Notes: a model not told the origin generated them from the sequence alone. Numbered from the stretch's first letter, positions 14,167-43,109 are shown. The stretch: 64,000 bases of DNA from an uncultured Tateyamaria sp. (GCF_947503465.1 NZ_CANNDN010000001.1:1798001-1862000), one strand, 5' to 3'. Translations and numbers: made by a program.

Positions 14167-14880
14167 TCACACATCTTCGGCCAGGGTCAGGGTCACGCGG
14201 TCGCCGGCAAACCATGTCCGTCCCAGTTCTACGGGCCGCCCGTCGGCATCCACATTCAGGCCCACGCTGCGCAATATCGGCGCGCCTTCGGCAATGCGCA
14301 GGTGCAGCGCTTGTGTCGCGGTGGCAGACTTGGCCGTCAACCGGGTCCAGGCCCGCGTATAATCGGACACGCCCTCGGCCCGCAGCGCGGCGGTGACGGA
14401 CGCGGACGCTGCCAGCGCGGCGGGCAGCGTCGGAAAGGGCTCCGCCGGAAAGACCGAGCGAAAGAGCGCGATGGGGTATTCGTCGGCTAAGCTGAGCCCG
14501 TCATAGGCATGGACCTGTGCGGTGGCATCGAGCGCCAGCGCGTCACGTTCGTCGGGGCTGGCCAGGCGGGTCGTGACCGACAGTACCTGTTTGGCTGGCG
14601 TGCGCCCCGCCGCGCGCAGGTTCTGGTGAAACCGCACACGCTTGCCAATTGGATAGTCGGTGGGGGTTTGCGCCACAAAGGCCCCCGCCCCGCGCCGCGT
14701 GTGAATGGTGCCCGTTTCGACCAGTGCCGACAGCGCGTGTCGGACGGTGTGGCGATTGACGCCAAAGCGCGCGGCCAACTGCGCCTCGGTCGGCAGCTTG
14801 TCACCGGGGCGATAATGGCCGTCGGCAATCTCTCCCGACAGCGTGTCGGCTATGGACCTCCAGATCGGCGTGCGTGCCAT
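14167..14880 (-). CDS. phnF: GntR-family regulator of phosphonate genes
   Basis: A 237-residue cytoplasmic regulator. Residues 1-70 are a winged helix-turn-helix (GDKLPTEAQLAARFGVNRHTVRHALSALVETGTIHTRRGAGAFV) and the rest is a UTRA-type ligand domain, the HutC/PhnF subgroup. It is encoded divergently from phnG, across a 113-bp region carrying GTnTAG repeats. ATG 14880 is preferred to an upstream start because GGAGG lies 8 nt before it. PhnF proteins usually repress phn genes. Confidence 0.9.
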   Translation of the reverse strand: MARTPIWRSIADTLSGEIADGHYRPGDKLPTEAQLAARFGVNRHTVRHALSALVETGTIHTRRGAGAFVAQTPTDYPIGKRVRFHQNLRAAGRTPAKQVLSVTTRLASPDERDALALDATAQVHAYDGLSLADEYPIALFRSVFPAEPFPTLPAALAASASVTAALRAEGVSDYTRAWTRLTAKSATATQALHLRIAEGAPILRSVGLNVDADGRPVELGRTWFAGDRVTLTLAEDV

Positions 14881-14891
14881 GATGCTGGCCT

Positions 14892-14909
14892 CCGTCACGA
14901 AACTTTCAC
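14892..14909 (+). promoter_or_regulatory. Candidate Pho box upstream of phnG
   Basis: CCGTCAC-GAAA-CTTTCAC: two 7-base half-sites separated by 4 bases, 11 bp apart, each one base from the CTGTCAY consensus. It is placed about 85 bp before the phnG start, a normal position for PhoB activation. Confidence 0.65.
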
Positions 14910-14950
14910 AACACACAGATGGACGCGCCGCACCGACTCGCCTATTATTT

Positions 14951-14993
14951 GTCTAGTTGTATAGTAATCTCGACAACTTCACAAGGTGTATAG
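14951..14993. promoter_or_regulatory. Triple GTnTAG motif, likely PhnF operator
   Basis: GTCTAG (14951-14956), GTATAG (14959-14964) and GTATAG (14988-14993). HutC-subfamily GntR regulators bind sequences like GTMTAKAC; the third copy fits at seven of eight positions and ends one base before the phnG ATG. The region therefore could be bound by PhnF. Confidence 0.55.
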
Positions 14994-15449
14994 ATGGACG
15001 GATCAACAGACCCGAATGCGGCGCGCAAGGCCTGGCTGTCGGTGCTGGCAAAGGCACCCGCCGACGCTGTTGCCGACCTGTGGACACGGGCCGGTTATGC
15101 CCCGGATCACACTGTGCTGCGCGCACCCGAAATCGGGGCCGTCATGGTGCGGGGGCGCGCCGGGGCCGTCGGCGCGCCGTTCAATCTGGGGGAAATGACG
15201 GTCACGCGCTGTTCTGTTCGCCTGACATCGGGCGAGGTCGGGCACGGGTATGTGCAAGGCCGGAGCAAGGATCATGCCCTGCACGCGGCGTTGACCGATG
15301 CGCTGATGCAGACCGACCGGGCAGCGGCCGTCAATGACGCCATCATTGCCCCGCTGCGGGATGCCCACGACACCCGCAAGGCCGTGCGCGCCGCCAAGGC
15401 GGCCGCGACAAAAGTCGACTTTTTCACCATGGTACGCGGAGAGGACTGA
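14994..15449 (+). CDS. phnG: C-P lyase core subunit PhnG
   Basis: A 151-residue subunit of the PhnGHIJ complex that, with PhnI, attaches the phosphonate to ribose from ATP. It shows the PhnG pattern: RKAWLSVLAKAP, GAVMVRGRAGAVGAPFNLGE, TVTRCSVRL, VGHGYVQGRSKDHALHAALTDALMQ. It is the first gene of the plus-strand phn operon, and its stop overlaps the phnH start by one base. The ribosome site AAGG is weak, and the last GTATAG operator touches the ATG. Confidence 0.95.
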   Translation: MDGSTDPNAARKAWLSVLAKAPADAVADLWTRAGYAPDHTVLRAPEIGAVMVRGRAGAVGAPFNLGEMTVTRCSVRLTSGEVGHGYVQGRSKDHALHAALTDALMQTDRAAAVNDAIIAPLRDAHDTRKAVRAAKAAATKVDFFTMVRGED

Positions 15450-16009
15450 TGGATCACACACCCCTGGGCGGTGGATTTGCAGATCCGCCCCATCAAAGTG
15501 CCGAAGCGTTCCGCAGCATCATGCAGGCGATGGCGCGGCCCGGGCGCATCCTCGAAACCGGTGGCGCCATCGCCCCCGCACCGCTGTCGGTCGCGGCCAG
15601 CACGGTGATTGCCACCCTGTGCGACCCCGATACGGGCATTCACCTCGCTGGCGGGCATGACACCGACGCCGTGCGCGACTGGATCGCCTTCCATACCGGT
15701 GCCCGGCTGGTCGGGGCGGGTGACGCCCATTTCGTTCTGGGCCCATGGGACGCCATCGACCTTGCCCCCTTGCCGCTGGGAACGGCCGAATATCCCGACC
15801 GTTCGGCCACCGTGATTGTCGAAATGGAGACCCTGCACACCGCGGGCGCAACCCTGACCGGCCCCGGGATCAAGGACACCGCCGCGCTTAACCTGCCGGA
15901 CCGAGTGCTGTTTCAGCGCAACGCCGCGCGGTTTCCGCTTGGCCTTGATTTTCTGTTCACATGCGGGACGCGGATTGCGGCCCTGCCCCGCAGCACAAAG
16001 GTGACCTGA
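15449..16009 (+). CDS. phnH: C-P lyase core subunit PhnH
   Basis: A 186-residue PhnH, the dimer-forming structural subunit that binds PhnG/PhnI in the core complex. Its features are the N-terminal AFRSIMQAMARPGRILETGG, the central FHTGARLVGAGDAHFVLG and C-terminal LTGPGIKD and FPLGLDFLFTCG. It is joined to phnG by TGATG and followed by phnI after one base. Confidence 0.95.
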   Translation: MDHTPLGGGFADPPHQSAEAFRSIMQAMARPGRILETGGAIAPAPLSVAASTVIATLCDPDTGIHLAGGHDTDAVRDWIAFHTGARLVGAGDAHFVLGPWDAIDLAPLPLGTAEYPDRSATVIVEMETLHTAGATLTGPGIKDTAALNLPDRVLFQRNAARFPLGLDFLFTCGTRIAALPRSTKVT

Positions 16010-16010
16010 G

Positions 16011-17099
16011 ATGTATGTAGCGGTGAAAGGTGGGGAAAAGGCCATTGATGCGGCCCATGCCTGGCTGGCCGAGGAACGGCGCGGACCCACGGATGTGGCA
16101 GAGATGTCGGTGGATCAGATCAAGGGGCAGTTGACGCTGGCGGTGAACCGCGTGATGGCGGAAGGGTCGCTCTATGATCCGGATCTGGCGGCGCTTGCCA
16201 TCAAGCAGGCGCGTGGTGATCTGATCGAGGCCGTCTTTCTGGTGCGGGCCTATCGCACCACGCTGCCGCGTTTTGGCGGATCGAGGCCGCTTGACACCGG
16301 TGCCATGGCCTGTGACAGGCGCGTTTCGGCAACGTTCAAGGACGCCCCGGGCGGTCAGGTTCTGGGGCCCACATTCGACTACACGCACCGTCTTCTGGAC
16401 TTCAAACTGGCCGCCGATGGCGAGGTGCCCGCCGCGCCCTCACGCGATGATGCGCCGGCCCCCAAACCGCATATCATGTCGTTTCTGGACCGCGAGGACC
16501 TGATCCAGCCCGAACCCGAAGGCGCGGATGTACCGCCGGATCTGACCCGCGAACCGCTTGAATTGCCGGCGGAACGGTCCCTGCGCCTGCAATCGCTGAC
16601 ACGCGGGGACGAGGGGTTCATACTTGGCATGGCTTATTCGACCCAGCGCGGGTACGCGCGCAACCACGCCTTTGTTGCCGAGTTGCGCATCGGGACCTGT
16701 GCGGTCGAGATGGATATTCCCGAGCTTGGTTTCGCCATCGACCTGGGCGAGGTCGAGCTGACGGAGTGCGAAACCGTGAACCAGTTCCAGGGCTCGAAAA
16801 CCGAACCGCCGCAATTCACGCGGGGCTATGGTCTGGTGTTTGGCATGTCGGAGCGCAAGGCGATTTCGATGGCGCTGGTTGATCGGGCGCTGCGCTGGGA
16901 AGAACTGGGCGAAGACAATGTGGGCGCACCGGCGCAGGACGCGGAATTTGTACTGTATCACGCGGACAACATCCAGGCGACAGGCTTCCTCGAACATATC
17001 AAACTGCCGCACTATGTCGATTTCCAGTCGGAACTGGAACTGATCCGCAAGCTGCGCCGCGAGGCGATGGGACATGCGCAACAGGAGGCAGCGGAATGA
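16011..17099 (+). CDS. phnI: C-P lyase core subunit PhnI (nucleosidase)
   Basis: A 362-residue subunit that carries out the nucleosidase chemistry joining phosphonate to the ribosyl triphosphate. It has the conserved opening MYVAVKGGEKAIDAAHAWLAE, FLVRAYRTTLPRFG, LLDFKLAAD, and near the end YHADNIQATGFLEHIKLPHYVDFQSELEL. Length is normal. The usual next gene phnJ begins 232 nt later; the gap holds a gene on the other strand. Confidence 0.96.
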   Translation: MYVAVKGGEKAIDAAHAWLAEERRGPTDVAEMSVDQIKGQLTLAVNRVMAEGSLYDPDLAALAIKQARGDLIEAVFLVRAYRTTLPRFGGSRPLDTGAMACDRRVSATFKDAPGGQVLGPTFDYTHRLLDFKLAADGEVPAAPSRDDAPAPKPHIMSFLDREDLIQPEPEGADVPPDLTREPLELPAERSLRLQSLTRGDEGFILGMAYSTQRGYARNHAFVAELRIGTCAVEMDIPELGFAIDLGEVELTECETVNQFQGSKTEPPQFTRGYGLVFGMSERKAISMALVDRALRWEELGEDNVGAPAQDAEFVLYHADNIQATGFLEHIKLPHYVDFQSELELIRKLRREAMGHAQQEAAE

Positions 17100-17101
17100 C
17101 C

Positions 17102-17296
17102 TTAGTCGCCACCATCGCCGTCGCAGTCCCAGAAGCCGCCGTCGCCACTGCCACCGGAGCCGCCGTCTTTGCTGTGCAGGACCTGGTTGATCCAGTGCGA
17201 TGCGGGCAGGCACGTGGCGGCCATTTCCCGCAGGACGGCAAAGACGACGATCGCGCCGATGATGGAATACGTCAGGATTTGGTTCGCGTCGCTCAT
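17102..17296 (-). CDS. Small membrane protein with Gly/Asp-rich tail, antisense within the phn operon
   Basis: A 64-residue protein: MSDANQILTYSIIGAIVVFA starts a single membrane helix, followed by a cysteine-containing loop (REMAATCLPASHWINQVLH) and a C-terminal GGSGGSGDGGFWDCDGDGGD. Almost every codon ends in G or C, as in the surrounding genes, whereas the opposite frame does not; this argues strongly that the minus strand is coding. It fills the phnI-phnJ gap and is transcribed against the operon. No clear ribosome site is seen. Gly/Asp-rich tails after one helix occur in other small alphaproteobacterial membrane proteins. Function unknown. Confidence 0.7.
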   Translation of the reverse strand: MSDANQILTYSIIGAIVVFAVLREMAATCLPASHWINQVLHSKDGGSGGSGDGGFWDCDGDGGD

Positions 17297-17331
17297 GGTC
17301 GCGACCGTTACGCAAACAATGGGGCAAGAGC

Positions 17332-18201
17332 ATGACCGACTACAACTTTGCCTATCTGGATGAACAGACCAAGAGGATGATCCGCCGCGCGATCCTGAAA
17401 GGGTTGGCCATTCCGGGCTACCAGGTGCCCTTTGCCAGCCGCGAGATGCCGATGCCTTATGGCTGGGGGACAGGTGGCGTCCAGGTGTCGGCGGCGGTGA
17501 TGACCGCGGATGACGTGTTCAAGGTGATTGACCAGGGCGCGGATGATACCACCAACGCGGTGTCCATCCGCCGCTTTTTCGAGCGCACCGCGGGGGTCGA
17601 GACAACCGAGGCAACCAGCGCGGCGACGGTGATCCAGACCCGCCACCGCATCCCCGAGGAACCGCTGACGGACGATCAGATCCTTGTCTATCAGGTGCCG
17701 ATCCCCGAACCGCTGCGCTTTCTTGAACCGTCCGAGGTCGAGACCCGCAAGATGCACGCGCTGGAAGACTATGGGCTGATGCATGTGAAACTGTACGAAG
17801 ACATCAGCGCACATGGGGCGATCGCGACATCCTACGCCTATCCGGTCAAGGTCGAGGGGCGCTATGTCATGGACCCGTCCCCGATCCCGAAATTCGACAA
17901 CCCCAAGCTGGGAATGGCCGCCATCCAGCTGTTTGGTGCCGGGCGCGAACAGCGCATCTATGCGTTGCCGCCCTACACGCAGGTCGTCAGCCTGGATTTC
18001 GAGGATTATCCTTTCGAGGCCACCAAGGCCGACCACGCCTGCGGGCTGTGTGGCGCCACGGACAGTTACCTGGACGAATTGATCGTCGATGACGCGGGCG
18101 GGCGCATGTTCATGTGTTCGGACACCGATTACTGCCAGTCCCGGCGCGCGGCAGGTCACGTGGGCGCGCAAGGAACCCCATCGGAGGAGGACGCGGCATG
18201 A
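17332..18201 (+). CDS. phnJ: Alpha-D-ribose 1-methylphosphonate 5-phosphate C-P lyase
   Basis: A 289-residue radical-SAM enzyme that breaks the carbon-phosphorus bond. The unusual iron-sulfur motif CX2CX21CX5C is present at Cys237, 240, 262 and 268, including the cysteine needed for catalysis. The N-terminal NFAYLDEQTKRMIRRAILKG and the GWGTGG segment fit the family. The ATG is preceded by GGGGCAAGAG. The stop overlaps phnK by 4 nt. Confidence 0.97.
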   Translation: MTDYNFAYLDEQTKRMIRRAILKGLAIPGYQVPFASREMPMPYGWGTGGVQVSAAVMTADDVFKVIDQGADDTTNAVSIRRFFERTAGVETTEATSAATVIQTRHRIPEEPLTDDQILVYQVPIPEPLRFLEPSEVETRKMHALEDYGLMHVKLYEDISAHGAIATSYAYPVKVEGRYVMDPSPIPKFDNPKLGMAAIQLFGAGREQRIYALPPYTQVVSLDFEDYPFEATKADHACGLCGATDSYLDELIVDDAGGRMFMCSDTDYCQSRRAAGHVGAQGTPSEEDAA

Positions 18202-18968
18202 GCCCGCTGTTGAAGGTCGAGGGGCTGTCGAAGTTCTACGGGCAGCGCATCGGCTGCGCCGATGTGAGCTTTGACCTCTACCCGGGCGAGGTGATGGGCA
18301 TTGTCGGCGAAAGCGGATCGGGCAAGTCCACGTTGCTGAACTGCATGGCCGGGCACCAGCCCTGCGACACGGGCCGCGTCATGTTCAACACCCGCGCGGA
18401 TGGCCTGCGCGACACCGTCACCATGAGCGAACCGGAACGGCGCATGCTGGGACGGACCGACTGGGCCTTTGTGCACCAGCATGCACGCGACGGGCTGCGC
18501 ATGAATGTCAGCGCAGGCGGCAATGTGGGCGAACGGCTGATGGCCGTGGGCGCGCGGCGCTATGGCGATATCCGGGAACAGGCGATCACCTGGCTGGACC
18601 GCGTCGAGATCGCGGCCGACCGCATTGATGACCGCCCCAGCCAGTTTTCCGGCGGTATGCAGCAGCGTCTGCAGATTGCGCGCAACCTGGTGACGGGTCC
18701 GCGGCTTGTGTTCATGGACGAACCCACCGGCGGGCTGGACGTGTCGGTGCAGGCGCGGCTGCTTGACCTGCTGCGCGGACTGGTGCGCGAGATGGGTCTG
18801 AGTGCCATCATCGTCACCCATGATCTGGCCGTGGTGCGCCTGCTGGCGGATCGGTTGATGGTGATGAAAGATGGGTACGTGGTCGAGGCGGGTTTGACCG
18901 ATCAGGTGCTGGACGATCCGCAACACGCCTATTCCCAATTGCTGGTGTCGAGTGTGTTGCAAGCGTGA
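18198..18968 (+). CDS. phnK: C-P lyase ABC-type ATPase PhnK
   Basis: A 256-residue ATPase with Walker A GESGSGKST, the Q-loop FVHQHARDGLRMNVSAGGN, signature FSGGMQQRLQIARNL, Walker B LVFMDEPTGGLDV and switch histidine TVHD-like THDLAVV. PhnK binds the PhnJ dimer in the core complex and is not a transporter. The start overlaps phnJ by ATGA, which rules out the longer frame. A hairpin element follows before phnL. Confidence 0.95.
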   Translation: MSPLLKVEGLSKFYGQRIGCADVSFDLYPGEVMGIVGESGSGKSTLLNCMAGHQPCDTGRVMFNTRADGLRDTVTMSEPERRMLGRTDWAFVHQHARDGLRMNVSAGGNVGERLMAVGARRYGDIREQAITWLDRVEIAADRIDDRPSQFSGGMQQRLQIARNLVTGPRLVFMDEPTGGLDVSVQARLLDLLRGLVREMGLSAIIVTHDLAVVRLLADRLMVMKDGYVVEAGLTDQVLDDPQHAYSQLLVSSVLQA

Positions 18969-18971
18969 GCC

Positions 18972-19020
18972 CTGGGGGCCAGCCCCCAGACCCCCGTCGT
19001 ATTTTTGGTCAGAAGAAGAT
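18972..19020 (+). repeat. Hairpin plus conserved tail after phnK (copy 2)
   Basis: CTGGGGG-CCAG-CCCCCAG, then ACCCCCGTCGTATTTTTGG and AGAAGAAGAT. It is the same architecture as the element after hisD. It may lower expression of phnL-phnN, or end the transcript while also carrying the upstream leader of phnL. Confidence 0.65.
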
Positions 19021-19026
19021 CTGAAC

Positions 19027-19710
19027 ATGATTGAAGTCAGTGAAGTTGCAAAATCCTTTGTCCTGCACAATCAGGGCAGTGCCGTGATCCCCGTGATGCG
19101 GGGCGCGCACCTGCGCGTGGCACCGGGTGAATGCGTGGCCCTTGTGGGCGCATCGGGGGCCGGCAAGTCGACCCTGATGCGGATGATCTACGGCAATTAC
19201 ACGGCGCAGGCCGGTCGGATCCTGGTGGGCGATGTCGATGTCGCGTCGGCGGCACCGCGCGACATCCTCGGCCTGCGCCGCGACACGCTGGGATATGTCA
19301 GCCAATTCCTGCGCGTGGTGCCGCGTGTGCCGACGCTGGATGTCGTGGCAGAGCCGCTGCGCGCCATCGGGGTCGACGCCCCCCGGGCCGAGGCGCGGGC
19401 CCGTACGCTGCTGGCCGAACTGAACATTCCCGAGCGGTTGTGGACGCTGAGCCCCACGACGTTTTCCGGTGGCGAGCAACAGCGCGTGAACATCGCGCGC
19501 GGATTTGCCCATGATTATCCCGCCCTGCTGCTGGACGAACCCACTGCCAGCCTGGATGCCACCAACCGCGCGGTTGTGCTGTCCCTGATCGAGCAGGCCA
19601 AGGCCCGGGGCGCGGCGATTGTCGGCATCTTCCATGACGCCGAGGCCCGGGCACAGGTCTGCGACCGCGAGGTTGACGTCAGCGCCTTCACGCCAAGGCA
19701 TGCCGCATGA
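19027..19710 (+). CDS. phnL: C-P lyase ATPase PhnL
   Basis: A 227-residue ATPase with Walker A GASGAGKST, signature FSGGEQQRVNIARGF, Walker B LLLDEPTASLDA and IFHD. It opens IEVSEVAKSFVLHNQGSAVIPVMRGA, typical of PhnL. It takes part with PhnGHI in making the ribosyl phosphonate. The ATG at 19027 follows the hairpin element; the longer upstream frame overlaps phnK and the hairpin, so it is not used. ATGA overlap with phnN. Confidence 0.95.
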   Translation: MIEVSEVAKSFVLHNQGSAVIPVMRGAHLRVAPGECVALVGASGAGKSTLMRMIYGNYTAQAGRILVGDVDVASAAPRDILGLRRDTLGYVSQFLRVVPRVPTLDVVAEPLRAIGVDAPRAEARARTLLAELNIPERLWTLSPTTFSGGEQQRVNIARGFAHDYPALLLDEPTASLDATNRAVVLSLIEQAKARGAAIVGIFHDAEARAQVCDREVDVSAFTPRHAA

Positions 19711-20249
19711 CCGGGCGATTGATCGCGGTGGTGGGGCCGTCCGGTGTCGGCAAGGACACGGTGATGGAGGCGATGGCCGCAGCCGAGCCGCGCCTTGCCC
19801 TTGTCCGGCGGGTGATCACCCGCCCTGCGACCTCGGGCGGCGAGGTGTTTGACGCCGTCACCCCGTCCGAATTCGAAACCCTGCACCGAAACGGCGCGTT
19901 TGCGCTGTCATGGTCCGCGCATGGGCTGTCCTACGGTGTTCCCAAGGCTGTCCACACCTCGTTGGATGCGGGTCAGGACATGCTGGCCAACCTGTCGCGC
20001 AAGGTGCTGTCGCTGGCGCAGGCCCGTTTCCCGGGTATGGCCGTGATTTCCCTGACCGCGGACGCTGACATATTGGCCGGTCGGCTGACCGCGCGGGGTC
20101 GCGAAACCCGGGCCGATATCGCACGCCGCCTTGCACGCGCCGACACGGACCTGCCCCAAGGGCTTGCCGTCACGCGGATCGACAATTCCGGCGCATTGGC
20201 AGACACGGTGCACGCGGCGCTGGCTGCGCTTTACCCGGTCAGGGCATAG
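19707..20249 (+). CDS. phnN: Ribose 1,5-bisphosphate phosphokinase
   Basis: A 180-residue kinase converting ribose 1,5-bisphosphate to PRPP, linking C-P lyase products to nucleotide synthesis. P-loop GPSGVGKDT, then RRVITRPATSGGEVFDAVTPSEFE, the guanylate-kinase-like fold. It overlaps phnL by 4 nt, and its 3' end overlaps the convergent DUF1045 gene by 19 nt. Confidence 0.94.
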   Translation: MTGRLIAVVGPSGVGKDTVMEAMAAAEPRLALVRRVITRPATSGGEVFDAVTPSEFETLHRNGAFALSWSAHGLSYGVPKAVHTSLDAGQDMLANLSRKVLSLAQARFPGMAVISLTADADILAGRLTARGRETRADIARRLARADTDLPQGLAVTRIDNSGALADTVHAALAALYPVRA

Positions 20250-33600: not shown

Positions 33601-35493
33601 TCAGGGCGGGTTGGATGCGCTGAGATAGGCGTGCAGTTCCGTCAGCACTTCTGCCCCTGCAAGCGGCATCTCGGGGAACAGGCTGCGCAAGTTACGGGCG
33701 CCCCGCATCTCGGCCAACGTGAGCGCGGGCTTGTTTGCACGGCCCCGACCGCTCCAGTCCAGGCCAAGGACATGGTGCAGGACAAAGGCCAGCGGGTCAG
33801 GCGCTTGCACCGCCGCCAGTTGGGCGGGCGTGATATCGCCAAATGCGCGTTCGTACAGGGCGACAAGCGCGCCGCCTGTTGCAGGGGCGGCAACTGCGCC
33901 GCCTTCCAGTCCGAATTGCGCGCCGGAATGGGGCGTGGGAGGCGGCGGGCGTGCCTTTTGCAGGGCGGTGGCAATTTTGGGAAACGGATGGGTCACGCGG
34001 GCCCCGATGACATGCGCACGCGGGCCCGGCGTGTCGGCATCGCCCGGCGGCCCCGCAGTCAAGACAAGGCTGGGCGCGCCCGACTTCTGATCAGTTTGTA
34101 CCTGTGTTTTGACAGACTGGTGGGCCGAGCTTTTCAGGTGCACCTCGCCCATCAGGCTGGCGCTTGTCTTGCTGCCCGTTGGCACGCTTTTGGACAGGCG
34201 GCCCAGATCGCCCTTGGGGTACACAACCTGCAAGGTCACGGCCCGGCAGACCAGCAGCTTTTGCACGGTGCCGACATTGGCGCCAAGCCCGTGGCCGCCG
34301 CCCACCGGGATCTGGAAATGGTAGCCACGCGGCACGTTCAATGCCTGATTGGTCGCGGCCTGCACAATGGGATGTTCAAAATACCAGCCGGTTGTCGTGT
34401 CGGGGTCCGCCTGGGCAAACGGGGTCGCGGCAACGGTGATCTCAGCGGGGCCATGATAGATGATCTTGACCTCTGCCCTGTCGCCTGAACCGTCATGGGC
34501 AAAGAGGTCGCGCGCCGCACCCTTGTTCGGGGCCACCGACACCACCCCGGCCGGGACGGATGCCGCTGGCTTGCCTGCCATGTTCACAACCGTCTGTCCT
34601 TTCGCGGTGCGCTTGGCGGAAAAGGTCACCTCGATCGTTGCCGATGATGACAATTGACTGCGGATGTCTTCGACCGGGGGCGAGACGGCAAAGCTGTGCC
34701 GCACGACGGTGTTGCCGGTGCGGTCCACCGTGTACATGCCGCTGTGATTTGCGACATCCGGGGCTTGGGTGTTGGCCGCCGCGTCCCGGATGGACCGCGA
34801 CAGGTTCCACAGCCTGTCGATCTGGCGTGCCCAGTCCTGTTCATGGCCCAGCGCCGCCTTGAGCGTGGGCAAAAAGGTCTGCTGTGCATTGGTCGGCGCG
34901 TGCGCAAACAAGGACGCCAGCGGGCCTGACCGAATTTCCGAGGCGGTGAGTGGCGGCAGACCGGCGGCTTCGCGCCCGCTCCAGCGGAAGGCGATCTGGT
35001 AGTCAACCACGTAAGTCAGGTTGCTGACGGTCGACGCGCCCAGCGCTGTGGCCGCGGTTTGCTTGTCTGCCGGGCTAATCGGGGCGAACATCGACTGGTA
35101 GGTGTTGATCAGTTGCCCCTGCGCCATGCGGGCGGCAATCAGGTGCTTGTTCACATCGGCCTGATCCTTGTCCGTCCAAAGATACGCGGTGGCGCTGATG
35201 ATGTTGAAGTACCAGGTGGTGAACCCGGCGGTCAGCCGAATGGCCCCACGACTGGTTTTCGATGCAATGGTGTTCAGGAAATTCCACGTCTCGGCGTTGA
35301 ACGTCCCGAGGTTGTTCCACTCCCACGGAAAATCCCCGACCCCCGAGGTGTCGAGCGGCACGTAATCCACCGGATCAACCTGTGTGGTCTGGCCGGATGG
35401 CCCACTGACAGGTGCCAGTTTGCGCGCGGCCTGGGCCGACAGGCGCAAGGACGACACAAGGTCCCGCCTGAAAGCGCCATAGGGGTCTTGCAT
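33601..35493 (-). CDS. Unknown protein, paralogue of the gene at 35593
   Basis: A 630-residue protein of a family I do not recognise. The N-terminal part aligns with the 479-residue neighbour: a PWEWNNLGTFNAETWNFLNT block here against FWYWNNAAIFNTDTWNQFNN there, and later TTGWYFEHPIVQAATN against GTGWWNPSLIKAAAN. Unlike the neighbour it has an extra Pro/Ala-rich linker (KARPPPPTPHSGAQFG) and a C-terminal part of about 100 residues (ALVALYERAFGDITPAQL...LGLDWSGRGRANKPALTL). There is no signal peptide, membrane helix or catalytic motif. The start at 35493 has GAGGTGG upstream. Same strand as its paralogue, 99 nt apart. Confidence 0.75.
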   Translation of the reverse strand: MQDPYGAFRRDLVSSLRLSAQAARKLAPVSGPSGQTTQVDPVDYVPLDTSGVGDFPWEWNNLGTFNAETWNFLNTIASKTSRGAIRLTAGFTTWYFNIISATAYLWTDKDQADVNKHLIAARMAQGQLINTYQSMFAPISPADKQTAATALGASTVSNLTYVVDYQIAFRWSGREAAGLPPLTASEIRSGPLASLFAHAPTNAQQTFLPTLKAALGHEQDWARQIDRLWNLSRSIRDAAANTQAPDVANHSGMYTVDRTGNTVVRHSFAVSPPVEDIRSQLSSSATIEVTFSAKRTAKGQTVVNMAGKPAASVPAGVVSVAPNKGAARDLFAHDGSGDRAEVKIIYHGPAEITVAATPFAQADPDTTTGWYFEHPIVQAATNQALNVPRGYHFQIPVGGGHGLGANVGTVQKLLVCRAVTLQVVYPKGDLGRLSKSVPTGSKTSASLMGEVHLKSSAHQSVKTQVQTDQKSGAPSLVLTAGPPGDADTPGPRAHVIGARVTHPFPKIATALQKARPPPPTPHSGAQFGLEGGAVAAPATGGALVALYERAFGDITPAQLAAVQAPDPLAFVLHHVLGLDWSGRGRANKPALTLAEMRGARNLRSLFPEMPLAGAEVLTELHAYLSASNPP

Positions 35494-35592
35494 GTGCCCA
35501 CCTCGCGTTTTCGTCCCGTGTGCCACCCCAGCATAGCAAAACCCACCCGGCAATCACCTCAGGATCGCCGGGTGGGCCAGGTACTGGTTACC

Positions 35593-37032
35593 TTACTTGG
35601 CGCCGGGCCATGCGCAATCGGCACCGATCACATAGGCCTGGGATGTCATGATGTTGCCCGGAATGACAGCAGGCGGAGGTGTCATGGTCACCGTAACGGT
35701 GCCTGCGGTCTTGTCGTACTTGTAGACCGAGCTTTCGTAGCTTTGCGATCCACCACCCAGCGGGATGCCAAGGAAGCTGACGCTCCAGTGCGATTCCTGC
35801 GAGAAGTGGGACTGGAACGACTGTTCATCCGCGTTGTGGAACACCATGGTGATCGTCGGCAGGTCACAGATCGCCAGTACGTCCAGCACCCCAAAGTCAC
35901 CGTTTTCGGCAAAGTTGTAGTTCTGGGGTGTGGTGAAGCCCACGCCGCTGACATTCGGATCGTGGTTGGCCGCCGCCTTGATCAGCGAAGGGTTCCACCA
36001 GCCGGTGCCTGTACCGATGTCATAGGCGCTGGCCGACAGTTGCGGGGTGAACTTGGTCACGCCCTTGAAGGACAGGCTGATGTCCACCTGCGTGACGTTG
36101 CTGTCGAACGAGAACGCGTTGTAGCTGGCGCTGGCACCGGCCCCGATGTGGAACCAGTCGATCCAGCCGGACACGCCCGCGCCACCTTCGACCGACACTT
36201 TGGACGTCGATTGGTCCACCTTGGTCACGGACATCGCGATGTCGAAGCCCTGGCTGCCGTTCAGGCCGTTCTGGATGGTGCTGGTCGCCTCTGCAATATC
36301 GAGATACGGCAGGATCGACGTCGCGCCCGTCACGTCAGCGGCGGACATCCAGCCCTTTTTCACTTGTGCCGGTGTCGGGCTCAGGTTCTTGGCGCTTTGC
36401 TTGATCTGACCGTTGTAGCTGTTGACCGCGTTCTGAACCGATGCGGCGGCATCCGTTTGCGACAGGTAGGTCATGAAATCGCTGATAAGCTTGGCCGATC
36501 CAAGCGGCGCGTTGGGCAACAGCGATGTCGGGTTGGTCGAGGTGCGGAACGTGGCTAGCGTCAGGCCCTGATCACCCCAGGACATGATCTGCTCTGTCAC
36601 GTAAAGCAGCTTGGCCCCGGCGGTTCCGCTATTGGCCGCGGGGATGGCGCCAAACATCGATGTGTAGTCGCCCACAACTGTGTTCAGAATGCCCGCAGCA
36701 TTGGTGTTGGCCTTGTTCAGGGCCGCCTGATCTGCCGCGGTCAGTTCGTACGCCATGGCAAGGTACAGGTTGAACAACGCGGTATTCAGCGCAGTGCCGT
36801 CGGTTGTCTGCAAATAGCCGTCCGGATTGTACTGCATCACGTTGTTGAACTGGTTCCACGTATCCGTGTTGAAGATGGCCGCGTTGTTCCAGTACCAGAA
36901 CAGATCGCCCATGCCGGCGCTGTCGACAGGCGACCAGTTTTGGATGTTCAGTGCCTTTTGAACCGGGCCGTCCGCCTTCTTGGCAAGGCTGTCATAATAG
37001 GCCTTTTTGATTTGTGCGATGTCTTGGGTCAT
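35593..37032 (-). CDS. Unknown protein, first of a paralogous pair
   Basis: A 479-residue protein, unrecognised family. It starts with a helical region (IAQIKKAYYDSLAKKADGPV), carries the shared WYWNNAAIFNTDTWNQFNN block at about residues 46-64, and an Ala-rich middle. From about residue 240 it becomes beta-rich, with Gly-rich stretches (GGAGVSGWIDWFHIGAGASASYNAF) and WSVSFLGIPLGGGSQSYESS, ending in a C-terminal TSQAYVIGADCAWPG. The layout, helical then beta and hydrophobic-glycine rich, is compatible with a pore-forming or lectin-like protein, but that is only a guess. No signal peptide. It is first in its transcript, facing the divergent control region. Confidence 0.75.
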   Translation of the reverse strand: MTQDIAQIKKAYYDSLAKKADGPVQKALNIQNWSPVDSAGMGDLFWYWNNAAIFNTDTWNQFNNVMQYNPDGYLQTTDGTALNTALFNLYLAMAYELTAADQAALNKANTNAAGILNTVVGDYTSMFGAIPAANSGTAGAKLLYVTEQIMSWGDQGLTLATFRTSTNPTSLLPNAPLGSAKLISDFMTYLSQTDAAASVQNAVNSYNGQIKQSAKNLSPTPAQVKKGWMSAADVTGATSILPYLDIAEATSTIQNGLNGSQGFDIAMSVTKVDQSTSKVSVEGGAGVSGWIDWFHIGAGASASYNAFSFDSNVTQVDISLSFKGVTKFTPQLSASAYDIGTGTGWWNPSLIKAAANHDPNVSGVGFTTPQNYNFAENGDFGVLDVLAICDLPTITMVFHNADEQSFQSHFSQESHWSVSFLGIPLGGGSQSYESSVYKYDKTAGTVTVTMTPPPAVIPGNIMTSQAYVIGADCAWPGAK

Positions 37033-37151
37033 TTTGATGTCCTCTAAGCTCTGTCAAAAATGATGCTCGTGTCCGAGCGGTTCCCCCCAGGAAAATTCCT
37101 TTGGGTGGCAGAAGCGCCAAGGACAGGCTGGCAGGACAGGCGGATCGAAGT

Positions 37152-37225
37152 CCTGAAACATTCCCGAAATAGTTGTGATTTCTGGCTCACGCGACATTTC
37201 GGAAATATTTCGGAAAAGTTTCAGG
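37152..37225. promoter_or_regulatory. Divergent control region with three copies of a TTTCGGAAA-like palindrome
   Basis: Copies are CATTCCCGAAAT (37159-37170), CATTTCGGAAAT (37195-37206) and TATTTCGGAAAA (37206-37217); the last two are 11 bp apart, one helical turn. The whole group is enclosed by an outer inverted repeat CCTGAAAC (37152-37159) and GTTTCAGG (37218-37225). It lies in the 286-bp gap between the two unknown transcripts. Confidence 0.65.
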
Positions 37226-37318
37226 CCTTTGGCCGTGCACCTTTTGCAGACTGTATCTCGTGCGGCCCAAGTGCGGGCCCGCATGCAAGACACGTGAAAG
37301 GCTCGGAACGACGTGACC

Positions 37319-37969
37319 ATGATAACTGCGCGAAACGAGACGATCCGAGAGATCCGAGTGTTTCCATACTACCGGGGTGTACCGCTTGAAGTGGATGCGG
37401 TGGGCAAGGCCAGCTCAGGCAAATACGAGGCCGGTTTCTTTGCCGGTCAAACCTACTACACGCTCGAACTTGATGACTGGAACGAATTCCGGGAGGTGCA
37501 TGTCGGAGCAACCTATACCTGCACGGCGATTTCGAAGGACGGGCGCCCCCTGAAAACCCACTGGATGTTCTGTACGTCCGTGGCAGGCCGGCCCACGTTT
37601 TCCATCAGCCGCCACTGGACCAACCCGACCAACTTCGCCCCTGTTCTGCCGCTGTGCGATACCAGCCTCGTTCATCTTGAGGAATTGACGGACATGGTTG
37701 CGTCCCTGCCCCGTGCCGTCGGTGACGACAGCCTTGTCCAGGCACAGATCGGTACATCCGGATGGCTGGTCATGACGCGGATCGGATGCCCGCACATGAT
37801 CGGCATCATGATTGACGACGCGGTGCTGCCCAGCCATATGTGCCAGGGTGCCAGCGATCTTGTCATCACTGCCCGCTCGGTGCGCACGACCCAATCCATC
37901 ACGCTGGAAAAACTAAGCTGCGTCAGCACCAAAGACAAATCCCTGTTCTTACGGCTGCACGAGGGATGA
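37319..37969 (+). CDS. Unknown 216-residue protein
   Basis: No family recognised. The chain is beta-rich (YYTLELDDWNEFREVHVGATYTCTAI; TFSISRHWTNPTNFAPVLPL) and has six scattered cysteines, no signal peptide and no membrane helix. A GTG six bases upstream (37313) is an alternative start. It is the first plus-strand gene facing the paralogue pair, and precedes the winged-helix/TPR regulator. Confidence 0.6.
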   Translation: MITARNETIREIRVFPYYRGVPLEVDAVGKASSGKYEAGFFAGQTYYTLELDDWNEFREVHVGATYTCTAISKDGRPLKTHWMFCTSVAGRPTFSISRHWTNPTNFAPVLPLCDTSLVHLEELTDMVASLPRAVGDDSLVQAQIGTSGWLVMTRIGCPHMIGIMIDDAVLPSHMCQGASDLVITARSVRTTQSITLEKLSCVSTKDKSLFLRLHEG

Positions 37970-38172
37970 TTGTGCTATGCCGAACCTCTGTTGATCACTA
38001 CTATAGGTCGCGTAACCAGTCGTGGCCGTTGCCTCGGACGCGCGTATCGGGCGATCTTGCGCCAATGCGCGGGGTTTTGTGCGCGCATGCGGTAGGCAAG
38101 CGCACACAGGACCATACGGTGGGTGTGGGTGCGGCTGGCGACACCAGGGGGAAGGCGCCGACGGCACTGAAA

Positions 38173-39798
38173 ATGAACGGTTTTGCGGCTGCGCATATTC
38201 GATTGGGCGACGCGCTTTATGACGTGGCCACGGATCGCATTGTCACGTCATGTGGCGAAGATATCCTGTTGCGGTCCCAGTCCGCACTGGTTTTGAAGTA
38301 TCTCGTGGGGGCCCTTGGCACACTCGCAACACGAGAAGAGTTGATCGCCGAGGTCTGGCCTGACGTTTCGGTCACGGATGACAGCCTGACGCAATGTATC
38401 CTCGACATTCGGCGCGCCATTGGCGACGCGGATCGCGTCATTCTCAAGACCGTGCCCAAGCGTGGATTTGTTTTGACCGGGACCCCCGTGCCGGAGGTCA
38501 TTGAACCGGAAACGGCACGATCCGCACCGCTGCCAGCGTCACCGCTGCACCCTGACAATACGCCTGCGCAGACAGGCATCATCGTGCCCGAGCTTGACCC
38601 GCGCGACGTGCTGCCGACCCTGGCGGTGTTGCCTTTCCGAACACAGCCCGACAACGGCCATGGCACACTGATCAGCGCGTTTGTCGGAGACGAGATCGCA
38701 GCCGCCATCAGCAGGTCCGAAGACATGAACGTCATTTCGCGCCTGTCGACGCTTAACCTGTCTGGCGGCCCCAATTCGTTGCAGAACGTGGGGTCGATGC
38801 TGAACGCGGATTTCATCATCTCCGGCAGCGTGTTCGAACGCGACAACAAGGTGCTGCTGCTGATCGAATTCGCGGAAACGGACCGCCAGACTGTGCTGTG
38901 GTCGGACCGGATGGCCCTTGATTCGGTTGAATGGATGCATGACACGGACACGATCGACCGGATTGTGACCCACATCCGCCGCGCCATCATGATCAACGAA
39001 GTCCGGCGCACCCGGTCAACACCTTTGACGGACCTCAAGCTGTTCAGTGTCCTGCACGGTGCGGTTGGCCTGATGCACCGGTTTTCGCCCGGCGATTTCA
39101 ACCGGGCGCAGAACTACCTTGAATATGTGACCGAAAAAGCCCCCGAGCATCCCACACCGCTGGCGTGGCTGGCGCGCTGGCATGTGTTGCGCACCGTGCA
39201 GGGATGGGCAGAAGATCCCCGCCACGAAGCGCGCGCCGCGCTGGATTTTACCGCCCGCGCGCTGGATATCGAACCCGATCACACCATGGCCCTGGTGTGC
39301 GAAGGGCAGGTGCTGGCGCATCTGCAACATCGTCTGGACGAGGCGCAAGCCCGCTATGACGCTGCACTGGCGCTGAACCCCAATGATGCGCAGGGGCTGG
39401 CCTTGCGGGGCATGTTCTCTGCCTTTCGTGACATGGGCGCCGAAGGCAAGCGCGACACGGAACGCGCCCTGCACCTGTCACCGTTCCATCCCCATCGCTT
39501 TTTCTTTCTGGCCCAAGCAGCGGCGGCAAACATCGCCGCCAAGGACTTTGGCCGGGCCGTAACACTTGCCAAGGAATCCCGGCGTCTCAACAGAACACAT
39601 GTGTCCACGTTGCGAACACTTGCGATTGCACAGGTTGGCGCGGGTCAATTGGAAGATGCCCGCGACACCGGCAAGGAACTGTTGCGCCTGCATCCGAACA
39701 TGCGTGTCAGCAGTTGGCTCAGGAACTCGCCCAGTTCCGGCTACGAACTGGGGCGTTCGGCCGCCGAAAAACTGCGCAGCATCGGGATTCCGGATTAG
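38173..39798 (+). CDS. Winged-helix/TPR transcriptional regulator (CadC-type DNA-binding domain)
   Basis: A 541-residue protein. Residues 1-97 are an OmpR/PhoB-type winged helix (LLRSQSALVLKYLVGALGTLATREELIAEVWPDVSVTDDSLTQCILDIRRAIGD...VPKRGFVL). A central TolB-like segment (LPTLAVLPFRTQP) is followed by several TPR-like repeats from about residue 280 (ARAALDFTARALDIEPDHTMAL, AQARYDAALALNPNDAQGLAL). No membrane helix lies between, so it is cytoplasmic, unlike CadC. It probably controls the neighbouring genes. An ATG at 38065 would lengthen it by 36 residues. Confidence 0.82.
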   Translation: MNGFAAAHIRLGDALYDVATDRIVTSCGEDILLRSQSALVLKYLVGALGTLATREELIAEVWPDVSVTDDSLTQCILDIRRAIGDADRVILKTVPKRGFVLTGTPVPEVIEPETARSAPLPASPLHPDNTPAQTGIIVPELDPRDVLPTLAVLPFRTQPDNGHGTLISAFVGDEIAAAISRSEDMNVISRLSTLNLSGGPNSLQNVGSMLNADFIISGSVFERDNKVLLLIEFAETDRQTVLWSDRMALDSVEWMHDTDTIDRIVTHIRRAIMINEVRRTRSTPLTDLKLFSVLHGAVGLMHRFSPGDFNRAQNYLEYVTEKAPEHPTPLAWLARWHVLRTVQGWAEDPRHEARAALDFTARALDIEPDHTMALVCEGQVLAHLQHRLDEAQARYDAALALNPNDAQGLALRGMFSAFRDMGAEGKRDTERALHLSPFHPHRFFFLAQAAAANIAAKDFGRAVTLAKESRRLNRTHVSTLRTLAIAQVGAGQLEDARDTGKELLRLHPNMRVSSWLRNSPSSGYELGRSAAEKLRSIGIPD

Positions 39799-39830
39799 TG
39801 CCGGGACATTCATTAAAGGGAGTATGAAGA

Positions 39831-41006
39831 ATGAGCATTGGACCAGAGAACGCATTGAATGCCTTGAATGCGCTGAATGCACTCAACGCGTTAAACGCCT
39901 TGAACGCACTGGGCAGCAACAACGCGCTGGCCGCAGGCGGAAACGAGGGCCCTTTGCTGGGCGAGGCGCTGATCACCAACCGCGACGGCATTGTCGGCAC
40001 GCAGATCGACCACATCACACCGCCGGCGGCTGGTGTCGTGGACAGCCCGGAAAACCTGCCCCGCCTGGCCAAAAGCGTGCGCGCCGCCATTTTCCAGGCC
40101 GAACTGGCGCCAAGCGTGGACCTGACCGTCGATACCGACGGCACGCTGCCGGTGACGACCTTGTGGCGCCGCACATCCGAACGGGATGGCCGTCGACGCA
40201 AGGTCACCTACAGCGAAATGGTGGAAATGACCGCACCCACGGTCGAGCAACTGTCCACGCAGCTTAGTCTCGTATCCGGGTATGCGCGCATTCGCCCGGA
40301 TCGTGCGGCCGAAATCCTGTCTCAGATCGGCGTTCCCACCGCCTTCTTCGGGTCCGTGAATTTCCTGAATGCCGAGCGGACGCCGCACACGATCGAATTG
40401 CTGTACACGGCGCTGACATTCGCGTTGCCCGTTATCCAGCGCACCAAATACGCGCTGGCCGTCAAGCGGCCCATTGAATTCTCGCCGCAGGTCCAGCCCA
40501 TGATTCCAACGCCAACGCATGGAACACTGCCCAGCGGCCACGCGACCGAGGCGTTCCTGATGGCCCGCATCCTGTGGAAGCTGCTGATCGAAAGCGACGC
40601 GCCGCAATACAACGACAAGGCCTATTGGGGCAGCATGCTGATGCGGCAGGCCGCGCGCATCGCCACCAACCGCACCGTTGCCGGCGTGCATTTTCCGATC
40701 GACAGTGTGGCGGGCGCGACATTGGGCCTGACCCTGGCCGATCATGTCCACGCGATGTGCCATGGCGGTGGCTGGACGTCCGCCACGCTCGACACGCCCA
40801 ATTTCGACCCCGAGCAGGATTTCGACTGGCACCAGATCTACAGCGCTGAAGGCAACGCGATGGCGGACGAGGCTGTGTCGGATCGCGGTGTGTGGCTGCG
40901 CACCCACCATCACAGCGCCCCCGATTGCGAAGGCCCCGCGCCCGCCCTGACCTGGCTGTGGAACAAAGCGCTGGACGAGTGGCGCGACCTGGGCGGCGGG
41001 GCATAG
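39831..41006 (+). CDS. Vanadium haloperoxidase/PAP2-type protein with N-terminal Asn-Ala-Leu repeat
   Basis: A 391-residue protein. Residues 7-27 are seven tandem NAL triplets with varied codons. The catalytic part follows the haloperoxidase/PAP2 pattern: K-x6-RP (KYALAVKRP), LPSGHATEAF (His about 236), and RTVAGVHFPID (Arg 281, His 287, Asp 291). Such proteins bind vanadate or phosphate; haloperoxidases oxidise halide with hydrogen peroxide, relatives are acid phosphatases. The sequence cannot decide between them. No signal peptide is seen, although many relatives are exported. It is nine nt before the protease gene. Confidence 0.82.
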   Translation: MSIGPENALNALNALNALNALNALNALGSNNALAAGGNEGPLLGEALITNRDGIVGTQIDHITPPAAGVVDSPENLPRLAKSVRAAIFQAELAPSVDLTVDTDGTLPVTTLWRRTSERDGRRRKVTYSEMVEMTAPTVEQLSTQLSLVSGYARIRPDRAAEILSQIGVPTAFFGSVNFLNAERTPHTIELLYTALTFALPVIQRTKYALAVKRPIEFSPQVQPMIPTPTHGTLPSGHATEAFLMARILWKLLIESDAPQYNDKAYWGSMLMRQAARIATNRTVAGVHFPIDSVAGATLGLTLADHVHAMCHGGGWTSATLDTPNFDPEQDFDWHQIYSAEGNAMADEAVSDRGVWLRTHHHSAPDCEGPAPALTWLWNKALDEWRDLGGGA

Positions 41007-41015
41007 GGGCGGACC

Positions 41016-43109
41016 ATGGCACGCTGGATCCCCAACCCCGAACCGGACGCCGCGGACATCATCGATCACATCACCTATTTCCGGCTGTCGCGCGAAGGTC
41101 ACCACTTTGCCGATGACCGGGAGGACGTGTGGTGGTCGGTCCTGGTCGAGCTGGAAGGCATCAGCATCGACCAGTTCGAACTGCTGTTGCAGGCGTTCGC
41201 GGATGACCTGCTGATCCCCGCGGCCTATGATGCAACCGACCGCAGCGCGGTACGCCCGCTGCAGCCCGTGGCCATTTATGCCCGCACCCGGCTGGCCGAT
41301 CACCTCAATGACCGGGCCAGTGACCTGAACATTGCCTCGGTACTGCTGGGCGCGTCGGTGCCTGCGCGGTTTCTTGACCGGGGTGCCCGCGCCCGCGACC
41401 TGCCAGAGGTGATCGTCGACGATGATGCCGTGATCCAGGCCGTCGTCGATGACGGTATCGGAATTGCGCACGAGCTGTTCCGCAGCGGCGCAACAGCGAC
41501 CCGCATCCACCATGCACGCATCTTCGAAGCCGAACCGCTGCCCGGCGGCGGCACCAGCATCGGGCGCGACCTGACCAAGGACAAGATCGATACGCTTTTG
41601 GCCGATTGCACGTTTGACGGCGTGCTGGACGAGGATCTGTTCTATCAGAAATCCGGGCAACTCGACTTTGCCAGGGGTGTATTTTCCACCGTGGCCCTGC
41701 GCCGGTCGCATGGCACGCACGTGATGGCGCTGGCGGCGGGTCGCACCATGGCCGAAGACGCCCAGACCCATCCGATCATCTGCGCGGCCCTGCCATCGCG
41801 GATCGTGGCGGACACAACCGGACTGGACAGCGTGCCGGTGCTTTACCTTGCCTTCCATATCCTGGTGAAACAGGCGCGCCGGTTTCGCACCCGGACGGGC
41901 GCACCGGTGCCCGTGGTGTTCAACTTTTCCTATGGCAATACCGGCGGGCCGCATGATGGCACCGGCATCTTCGCATCCATGTTCAACCATTACTTTGGGC
42001 AAGAGGGCGTTCGGGACAGCGCGTTGCTGCATGAAACCGACGAAAACACGCTCCAGCGTGCGGCGTCCCTGACCGACGGTGGATCACAAAAGGCGTGGCT
42101 GATACTGCCTGCGGGCAATGCCAACCTCGAACGGCTGCACGCCATCGACGACGGCGAAACCGACCATGACGGGGCGACAACGCTTGATCTGACGGTACAG
42201 CCGGATGACCGGACGCCGACCCACACGCAGATCTGGCTGCCGGTCAGCGCACAGGACGCGCAACCGAATTTTGCCACCATCACCGTGCAGGCCCCGTTCG
42301 ACATGGACGTCGGTGTCATCGAAACCCGGCCCGGCGAACATGCGGCACTGGTCAACAAACAGGGACAGCGAATTGCATGGTTGGCCTATCAATATGTGGG
42401 CGGGCACACCCAGCGCGGGCTGGTGACACTGTCCAGCAACCCAACCGCCAACCTGTCGGAGACATCTGACCTGGCCCCCGCAGGGACATGGAAGATCACG
42501 ATCAAACGGCATGCCGAGGCACCAAGGGACCCGATCCACGTCTGGGTGCGGCGGGATGAAACCCTGCCCGGGCAGATCACCGGCGGGCGGCAGGCCTTTC
42601 TGTCGAACCCCGACTACAAGCGCTTTGATCGGTTCGGGGCGCCCTTGGCCGTTGATCCGCCCCACAGCAAAAGCCCGGTGCGCCGCGCCGGGACCCTCAG
42701 CGGGTTTGCCTGCGGCGCATCACCGGTGGTCGTCGCCGCCTATACCGAACAGGAGGCGATCGTTTCAGATTACTCTGCCGCCGGACCGCTCAACCCATCG
42801 CCGAACGGCCCGGTGCCAGCCCGGGACGGGCCGGACCTGACGGCCAAGGGTGACGACAGCCTTGTGCGCCGTGGCGTGATCTCGGCCGGGTCGCGCAGCG
42901 GGTCCTGGGTGCGTCAGGCAGGCACCAGCGTTGCGTCGCCACAGGTGGCCCGCCTGGCGGGCCAGGCGATCCATGACCAGTCGGGCACAGCACGCGATTG
43001 GACGGCGCAGGCCGTCCGGGACCACCCGTTTGCGTTGCATGGGCATCCATCCCCCACGCGCGTGGGACATGGTGCCATTCGCCTGCCAAGGGACGACGTC
43101 ATCGGCTAG
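41016..43109 (+). CDS. Subtilisin-like (S8) serine protease
   Basis: A 697-residue protease. Catalytic residues are Asp145/146 (VVDDGIGIAHE), His232 (RRSHGTHVMALAAGRTM) and Ser638 (AGTSVASPQVARLAGQAI); the oxyanion Asn probably lies in PAGNANLERL. Between His and Ser is an insertion of about 400 residues, in place of the usual 150 or so, with a possible beta-sandwich. There is no signal peptide or obvious propeptide; about 140 residues precede the first catalytic Asp. ATG 41016 has GGGGCGG upstream. It is the last gene of the regulator-haloperoxidase-protease run. Confidence 0.85.
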   Translation: MARWIPNPEPDAADIIDHITYFRLSREGHHFADDREDVWWSVLVELEGISIDQFELLLQAFADDLLIPAAYDATDRSAVRPLQPVAIYARTRLADHLNDRASDLNIASVLLGASVPARFLDRGARARDLPEVIVDDDAVIQAVVDDGIGIAHELFRSGATATRIHHARIFEAEPLPGGGTSIGRDLTKDKIDTLLADCTFDGVLDEDLFYQKSGQLDFARGVFSTVALRRSHGTHVMALAAGRTMAEDAQTHPIICAALPSRIVADTTGLDSVPVLYLAFHILVKQARRFRTRTGAPVPVVFNFSYGNTGGPHDGTGIFASMFNHYFGQEGVRDSALLHETDENTLQRAASLTDGGSQKAWLILPAGNANLERLHAIDDGETDHDGATTLDLTVQPDDRTPTHTQIWLPVSAQDAQPNFATITVQAPFDMDVGVIETRPGEHAALVNKQGQRIAWLAYQYVGGHTQRGLVTLSSNPTANLSETSDLAPAGTWKITIKRHAEAPRDPIHVWVRRDETLPGQITGGRQAFLSNPDYKRFDRFGAPLAVDPPHSKSPVRRAGTLSGFACGASPVVVAAYTEQEAIVSDYSAAGPLNPSPNGPVPARDGPDLTAKGDDSLVRRGVISAGSRSGSWVRQAGTSVASPQVARLAGQAIHDQSGTARDWTAQAVRDHPFALHGHPSPTRVGHGAIRLPRDDVIG

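Follow-up and report, generated by a model that had tools for sequence, protein, structure and literature searches.

Genes D, E and F of a six-gene cassette (A to F; positions 33,601 to 43,109) from an uncultured Tateyamaria sp. form a conserved operon that encodes a winged-helix/tetratricopeptide repeat (TPR) regulator, a PAP2-superfamily enzyme and an S8 (subtilisin-like) serine protease. The enzyme, E, begins with an array of identical tripeptides, which is conserved among its homologues as an array, while the tripeptide itself differs between lineages. The cassette lies in a stretch of 64,000 nucleotides from a Roseobacteraceae genome, referred to here as the window. That the operon and its array constitute a conserved module is nearly certain. 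Our best explanation of the whole, to which we assign a probability of about one half, would be a regulator-switched cytoplasmic module in which a repeat-clustered phosphatase works beside a companion protease.

Relatives of E occur in hundreds of genomes (at least 571), the mapped ones in this operon, and their proteins are annotated only piecemeal. No paper on the operon or its arrays was found in the open-access literature; novelty of the combination is judged against PADLOC, Pfam, NCBIfam and open-access papers only, and the component protein families are all known. The array offers a well-defined case in which to test how assembly or recognition is encoded by repeat sequences, its units could provide naturally occurring orthogonal short tags, and the function of the regulator-PAP2-S8 combination becomes directly testable.

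Conservation of the D-E-F operon

All six genes proposed in an earlier sequence-only reading are present as open reading frames at their given coordinates and strands, and the gap sizes reported there, 32 nt between D and E and 9 nt between E and F, are exact. D (approximately 38,170 to 39,798, plus strand) has 542 amino acids when counted from the ATG nearest its winged helix, and combines an OmpR-type winged helix (Trans_reg_C, PF00486, 7.3e-11; 42.4 bits against a cutoff of 26.2), a stretch that by eye resembles TolB/FlgO, and TPR units. E (39,831 to 41,006, plus strand; 391 amino acids) carries the KX6RP, PSGH and RX5HX3D motifs of the PAP2 superfamily, and F (41,016 to 43,109, plus strand; 697 amino acids) is a Peptidase_S8 protein. 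The domain calls made earlier for D and F are thereby borne out. Judged by eye without a predictor, none of the six proteins has an obvious signal peptide.

Screens covered 101 relatives (queries B, E and F) and 385 class members (query E), and an E profile run on GTDB species genomes returned at least 571 confirmed relatives, the best 80 of which were taken further. Gene maps were drawn with our own simple gene caller, and linkage was counted over 108 non-redundant E loci, mostly from Alphaproteobacteria. These loci were selected by the presence of E, so the figures for D and F describe linkage to E and not the frequency of either gene alone. A TPR regulator adjoins E at 108/108 loci, and an S8 protease lies, by inspection, within three genes of E at every one of them. 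F is immediately 3' of E at 98 loci, with a median gap of 12 nt; at six of the remaining ten it lies up to three genes away in another arrangement, and at four an S8 protein that has diverged but retains the catalytic residues stands beside or near E. The order regulator-E-F was found almost everywhere in the mapped loci. D, E and F, proposed from the window to be one operon, are a conserved operon.

The regulator is more variable at its head, which among relatives may be a winged helix, a class III nucleotidyl cyclase (PF00211, 7.2e-14 in L139) or a SARP-like domain; 98 of the 108 loci have a D-type regulator and 10 a SARP-like winged-helix/TPR protein. Regulators of the CadC/HilA and SARP/AfsR one-component types, as well as nucleotidyl cyclase-TPR proteins, share the domain layout of D and its counterparts, but none is described in the literature searched as a fixed partner of a PAP2-S8 pair. 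The same genome holds a second D-E-F locus (L054:7855-12969; approximately 1650854-1655968 of G000:C1), in which a Thr-Ala-Met array is broken by SGS.

A rhizobial variant on Rhizobium and Sinorhizobium plasmids (L266, L269-L272) consists of a SARP-like regulator, a PAP2 protein with an Asn-Lys repeat and an S8 protease. In the four plasmids read, all four continue with a gene annotated 'HEXXH motif-containing putative peptide modification protein' and a ThiF adenylyltransferase, which raises the question of whether the repeat can be modified. Modifying enzymes of the type that acts on ribosomally synthesized and post-translationally modified peptides are absent from the six genes of the window and present only in this variant.

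The N-terminal tripeptide array

E starts with MSIGPE, followed by seven perfect Asn-Ala-Leu (NAL) units (39,849 to 39,911, plus strand) encoded by seven different 9-mers. This repeat had been noticed from the window and is confirmed; its nature as a conserved array with an unconserved unit appears on comparison only. Once the reading frame is continued 5' of the called start, a period-3 array is present in 116 of 121 E homologues. The five exceptions comprise two proteins with longer units (L073, L119), two with the repeat upstream of a wrongly called start (L203, L124) and one incomplete gene call (L209). The 94 non-redundant arrays that contain four or more perfect units use 42 distinct tripeptides. 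Units among the homologues include SSY, SAY, DAL, GAY, NAY, SGY, SGF, GAF, GGV and GGI, and also GNV, HAG, QGT, NAE, NAD, NGR, TAM and TGW.

Within an array the units are nearly perfect. When imperfect in-phase units are allowed, 963 perfect units stand against 26 that are once substituted (median 10 copies), a count that somewhat favours perfect units because the arrays were located by perfect runs. Runs of at least four perfect units were found in only 2 of 1,651 other proteins of the same loci, one of them poly-Thr. The underlying DNA behaves differently from the protein: 24 of 788 pairs of adjacent 9-mers are identical, and neighbouring units use the same codon less often than expected at each of the three positions of the unit (192 vs 274, 191 vs 264 and 255 vs 316), a scarcity reached by none of 500 within-array codon shuffles. 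Because slippage may simply eliminate arrays whose neighbouring units are identical, the codon pattern shows that DNA repeats are removed, whether through selection or through instability, with the amino-acid repeat retained. A recent DNA minisatellite as the sole explanation was rejected in view of the rarity of identical neighbours and the avoidance of shared codons.

Homologue pairs with 80-95% core identity have a common unit in 27 of 61 cases, so units change fast. In a comparison with little power to trace in-register descent across a change of unit, a register shared between arrays is clear only for the closest same-unit pairs. At closer range, in Phaeobacter plasmids whose E cores are approximately 98-99% identical, an NSF array has four, five or six units and its changes are synonymous only. 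From these sequence comparisons, the array looks to be under strong selection for mutual identity of its units and not for the choice of unit, with synonymous codons kept different. No precedent for a conserved array with a lineage-differing unit was found in the open-access literature. Some E homologues resemble FG-nucleoporins and FUS-type low-complexity domains in having short tandem units that carry aromatic or aliphatic stickers; the arrays of E differ from them in being near-perfect, lineage-differing, sometimes charged and attached to a bacterial enzyme.

An alternative reading of these data takes the array as a passive disordered tail without a function of its own, generated by slippage of short-unit repeats at a tolerant N-terminus. 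Strains do differ in copy number by entire units, recent duplications of DNA units are seen in some arrays (e.g., L175, L058), and the array is modelled as disordered (predicted local distance difference test score, pLDDT, approximately 33). A neutral tail, however, should decay in its amino acids and vanish in some lineages, whereas arrays are nearly always present and their units remain nearly perfect while synonymous sites are scrambled beyond chance. We regard a passive tail as unlikely.

Proposed mechanism

The preferred reading, a switched module with a clustered phosphatase, treats the D-E-F core as what may be a self-contained three-gene response module. D would sense an intracellular cue and switch the operon on, and regulation of the module by D is likely. 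The array of E would serve as a disordered, multivalent tag whose units all have to agree with those beside them; E molecules could thereby associate with one another, and the enzyme would operate in clusters. F, which looks like an active S8 protease and has no obvious signal peptide, would reside in the same cytoplasm and would most likely process E, its tag or an accessory protein.

Among the parts of this scheme, a role of the array as a homotypic assembly tag is put forward tentatively, at somewhat under even odds. A stronger version, in which the array is a lineage-specific homotypic recognition code whose units must all agree for E to self-assemble and whose words are replaced wholesale, giving orthogonal tags on one conserved enzyme, is speculative and on balance unlikely. 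Several observations weigh against the scheme. The chemistry of the units ranges over Gly-Gly-Phe, Asn-Ala-Tyr, the charged Asn-Ala-Glu, Asn-Gly-Arg and the rhizobial Asn-Lys, and one assembly chemistry would not easily cover all of these. One genome (G015) has two E proteins with the same HGG unit, so units are not strictly private. In the present genome, DNA coding for three consecutive NAL units occurs only in E; no partner therefore bears the same tag. Finally, the segments of F inspected around its active site show no visible tracking of the array unit. Two related candidates were rejected: an array matched by a partner protein, in view of the confinement of NAL-coding DNA to E in this genome, and an F specificity that covaries with the unit, which was not borne out in the inspected segments.

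The protease F and its possible substrate

The catalytic residues of F are retained over 108 homologues, with D145, H232 and the oxyanion residue N368 at 100% and S638 at 98%. The closest solved relatives by profile are the S8 germination proteases of the Csp group (CspB, 4i0w; 9sj6); the catalytic residues are kept, and F differs from them in its N-terminal region, the lack of a spore context and its fixed partnership with E.

This partnership bears on a second alternative, namely that the array is a substrate of F and that trimming of its repeated sites switches E on or off. The universal linkage and close spacing of E and F and the preserved catalytic residues are consistent with such a role. 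Subtilisin prefers bulky hydrophobic residues at P1, and many units (x-Ala-Tyr, x-Gly-Phe and x-Ala-Leu) would suit this preference; NAE, NAD, NGR, HAG and QGT, in contrast, would need other specificities, for which the inspected active-site segments show no matching change. We consider trimming of the array to be about as improbable as a passive tail. Action of F on E in general is possible but doubtful.

Accessory genes and the possibility of a conflict module

Upstream of the operon lie C (37,319 to 37,969, plus strand, with a start at 37,313 or 37,319; 216-218 amino acids) and, on the minus strand, A (33,601 to 35,493; 630 amino acids) and B (35,593 to 37,032; 479 amino acids). A and B are diverged paralogues, as proposed earlier, with approximately 24-27% identity (E-value approximately 1e-25), and the C-terminal extension of A partly repeats its own N-terminal region, giving a second partial match to the B profile within A. 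B has a predicted helical N-terminal part and a beta-rich C-terminal part. None of the three has a convincing family match in Pfam, NCBIfam, PHROG or PADLOC.

The association of these genes with D-E-F is looser than that within the operon. C is directly 5' of D in 28 mapped loci (redundant loci counted) and accompanies about a fifth of loci; A/B-like genes stand divergently at the next positions past C in approximately 10 distinct loci of 108. The co-occurrence of all six genes, suggested earlier as a check, was thus found in part: D-E-F are linked at all 108 loci and C joins them, but A and B do so at only approximately 10. An A/B profile search found members in 4 of 395 genomes of the family. 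A close E lies a few kb away on the same contig in two of the four (G693, G756). In another genome (G562, L197:8299-11163), two tandem B-like genes stand beside a regulator that by eye resembles Crp/Fnr, and the 20 kb around them contain no D-E-F, which indicates that the A/B family also exists independently of the operon. No tblastn match to A/B was found on plasmids or phages. Since A/B-like genes accompany only those approximately 10 loci, D-E-F normally works without A and B and does not exist to mature them. A dedicated maturation system for the pair was rejected on this ground, and the earlier suggestion that the operon makes or matures the paralogues is not supported. Our best guess makes C and the A/B pair, which is transcribed divergently, clade-specific accessories that share the control of D-E-F.

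In other genomes the A/B slot holds a protein of 117-122 amino acids or a pair of 323 and 278 amino acids. The former fills the divergent slot at L060:5735-6103 and L120:6315-6668, both on the minus strand, and has conserved cysteines by eye. At L058:2650-7382 (plus strand), C-D-E-F is preceded, in the same orientation, by genes for a 1257-aa protein and a 312-aa Exo_endo_phos-like protein.

These variable divergent genes, together with a patchy distribution, plasmid carriage and an insertion-like cassette, would fit a conflict or cell-death module in which D senses attack, F cleaves A/B-type proteins as possible pore-formers and E completes the killing. Structure prediction of the paralogues, also suggested earlier, yielded a model of B (mean pLDDT 73) with no significant match to structures by Foldseek. 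A weak resemblance of the model to bacterial gasdermin 7n51 (Z 5.0, 195 residues aligned, root-mean-square deviation 5.4) falls within the noise range of the tool, as do the other VIA rows for the A/B fold, phage baseplate proteins included, and it is offered as a lead only. A and B are moreover missing from most loci, and none of the six proteins has a match in PADLOC-DB 2.0, F alone giving a weak one to IetS (E-value 0.09). A conflict module is quite improbable, and a known defence system was rejected on the PADLOC result.

The catalytic class of E

E matches Pfam PF01569 above cutoff (1.8e-11), and K206, R213, S235, H237, R281, H287 and D291 are invariant in 23 aligned sequences. Most of its core is modelled with a pLDDT above 85. 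Vanadium-dependent haloperoxidases and PAP2 enzymes have the KX6RP/PSGH/RX5HX3D site in common, and the label 'haloperoxidase/PAP2' given earlier holds in its second half: the predicted fold is nearest to class A acid phosphatases, and homologues are publicly annotated as 'phosphatase PAP2 family protein.' Class A non-specific acid phosphatases and PAP2 enzymes (7f17, 1iw8, PhoN) share the catalytic motifs and core fold of E. E differs from them in its apparently cytoplasmic location, its approximately 170 additional residues, its tripeptide array and its linkage to a regulator and an S8 protease. On motifs and predicted fold, our best guess is that E is a soluble PAP2-type phosphohydrolase, and phosphatase activity appears at least as likely as haloperoxidase activity.

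That E might be a vanadium-dependent haloperoxidase, and the operon an oxidative-halogenation response, is quite improbable: the shared active-site motif, a profile match to bromoperoxidase 1qi9 (5e-9) and genes that by eye resemble animal-type haem peroxidases just 3' of F at L069:5522-7276 and L073:5687-7429 (both minus strand) are set against closer similarity to acid phosphatases by profile (2e-17) and by Foldseek (1.9e-6 for these first-ranked matches vs 0.027 for the best haloperoxidase, with a large part of the model unmatched) and the lack of an obvious signal peptide, many characterized haloperoxidases of this class being exported or cell-wall bound.

The B-C control region

The divergent region between B and C contains an operator-like tandem direct repeat, TTTCGGAAA-TA-TTTCGGAAA (37,197 to 37,216), with an 11-bp period. 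Tandem sites of OmpR-family regulators are spaced by about one helical turn, which the 11-bp spacing fits. The form TTTCGGAAA-N2-TTTCGGAAA is kept in a five-locus alignment that includes one locus at another genomic site. A scan against shuffled sequence gave a similar element at p<=0.05 in 16 of 22 regions upstream of C, some of which lack A/B, and in 10 of the 71 regions from loci that have no C; these p-values are approximate, because the shuffled sequences of the null preserved base composition only. In this clade, D would probably switch the operon on by binding the tandem TTTCGGAAA repeats between B and C. The description of the locus as a regulated unit was upheld by the conserved operon with C joining it, this conserved element and the cassette-like insertion seen in a sister species.

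Genomic position and mobility

That insertion is evident from the flanking genes. An egtD-like gene directly precedes a pqiA-like gene in G003 and G005, while in sister species G008 the interval between them is exactly the A-F cassette, with C intact. The interval is 13 kb in the window, G001 is arranged as the window is, and the cassettes of G014 and G018 sit elsewhere in the genome. D-E-F is also carried on conjugative Phaeobacter plasmids, where its products are annotated as winged helix protein, phosphatase PAP2 family protein and S8 family serine peptidase. On one of these, from Phaeobacter inhibens M647 (L263), the annotated E gene is 1080 nt long, compared to 1170 nt in sister strains, and the genes annotated next to it do not reach the length of D and F; this operon is possibly a decaying copy. 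Elsewhere in the window, an ordinary run of genes at 14,167 to 20,249 resembles, by eye, a phosphonate (phn) C-P lyase operon.

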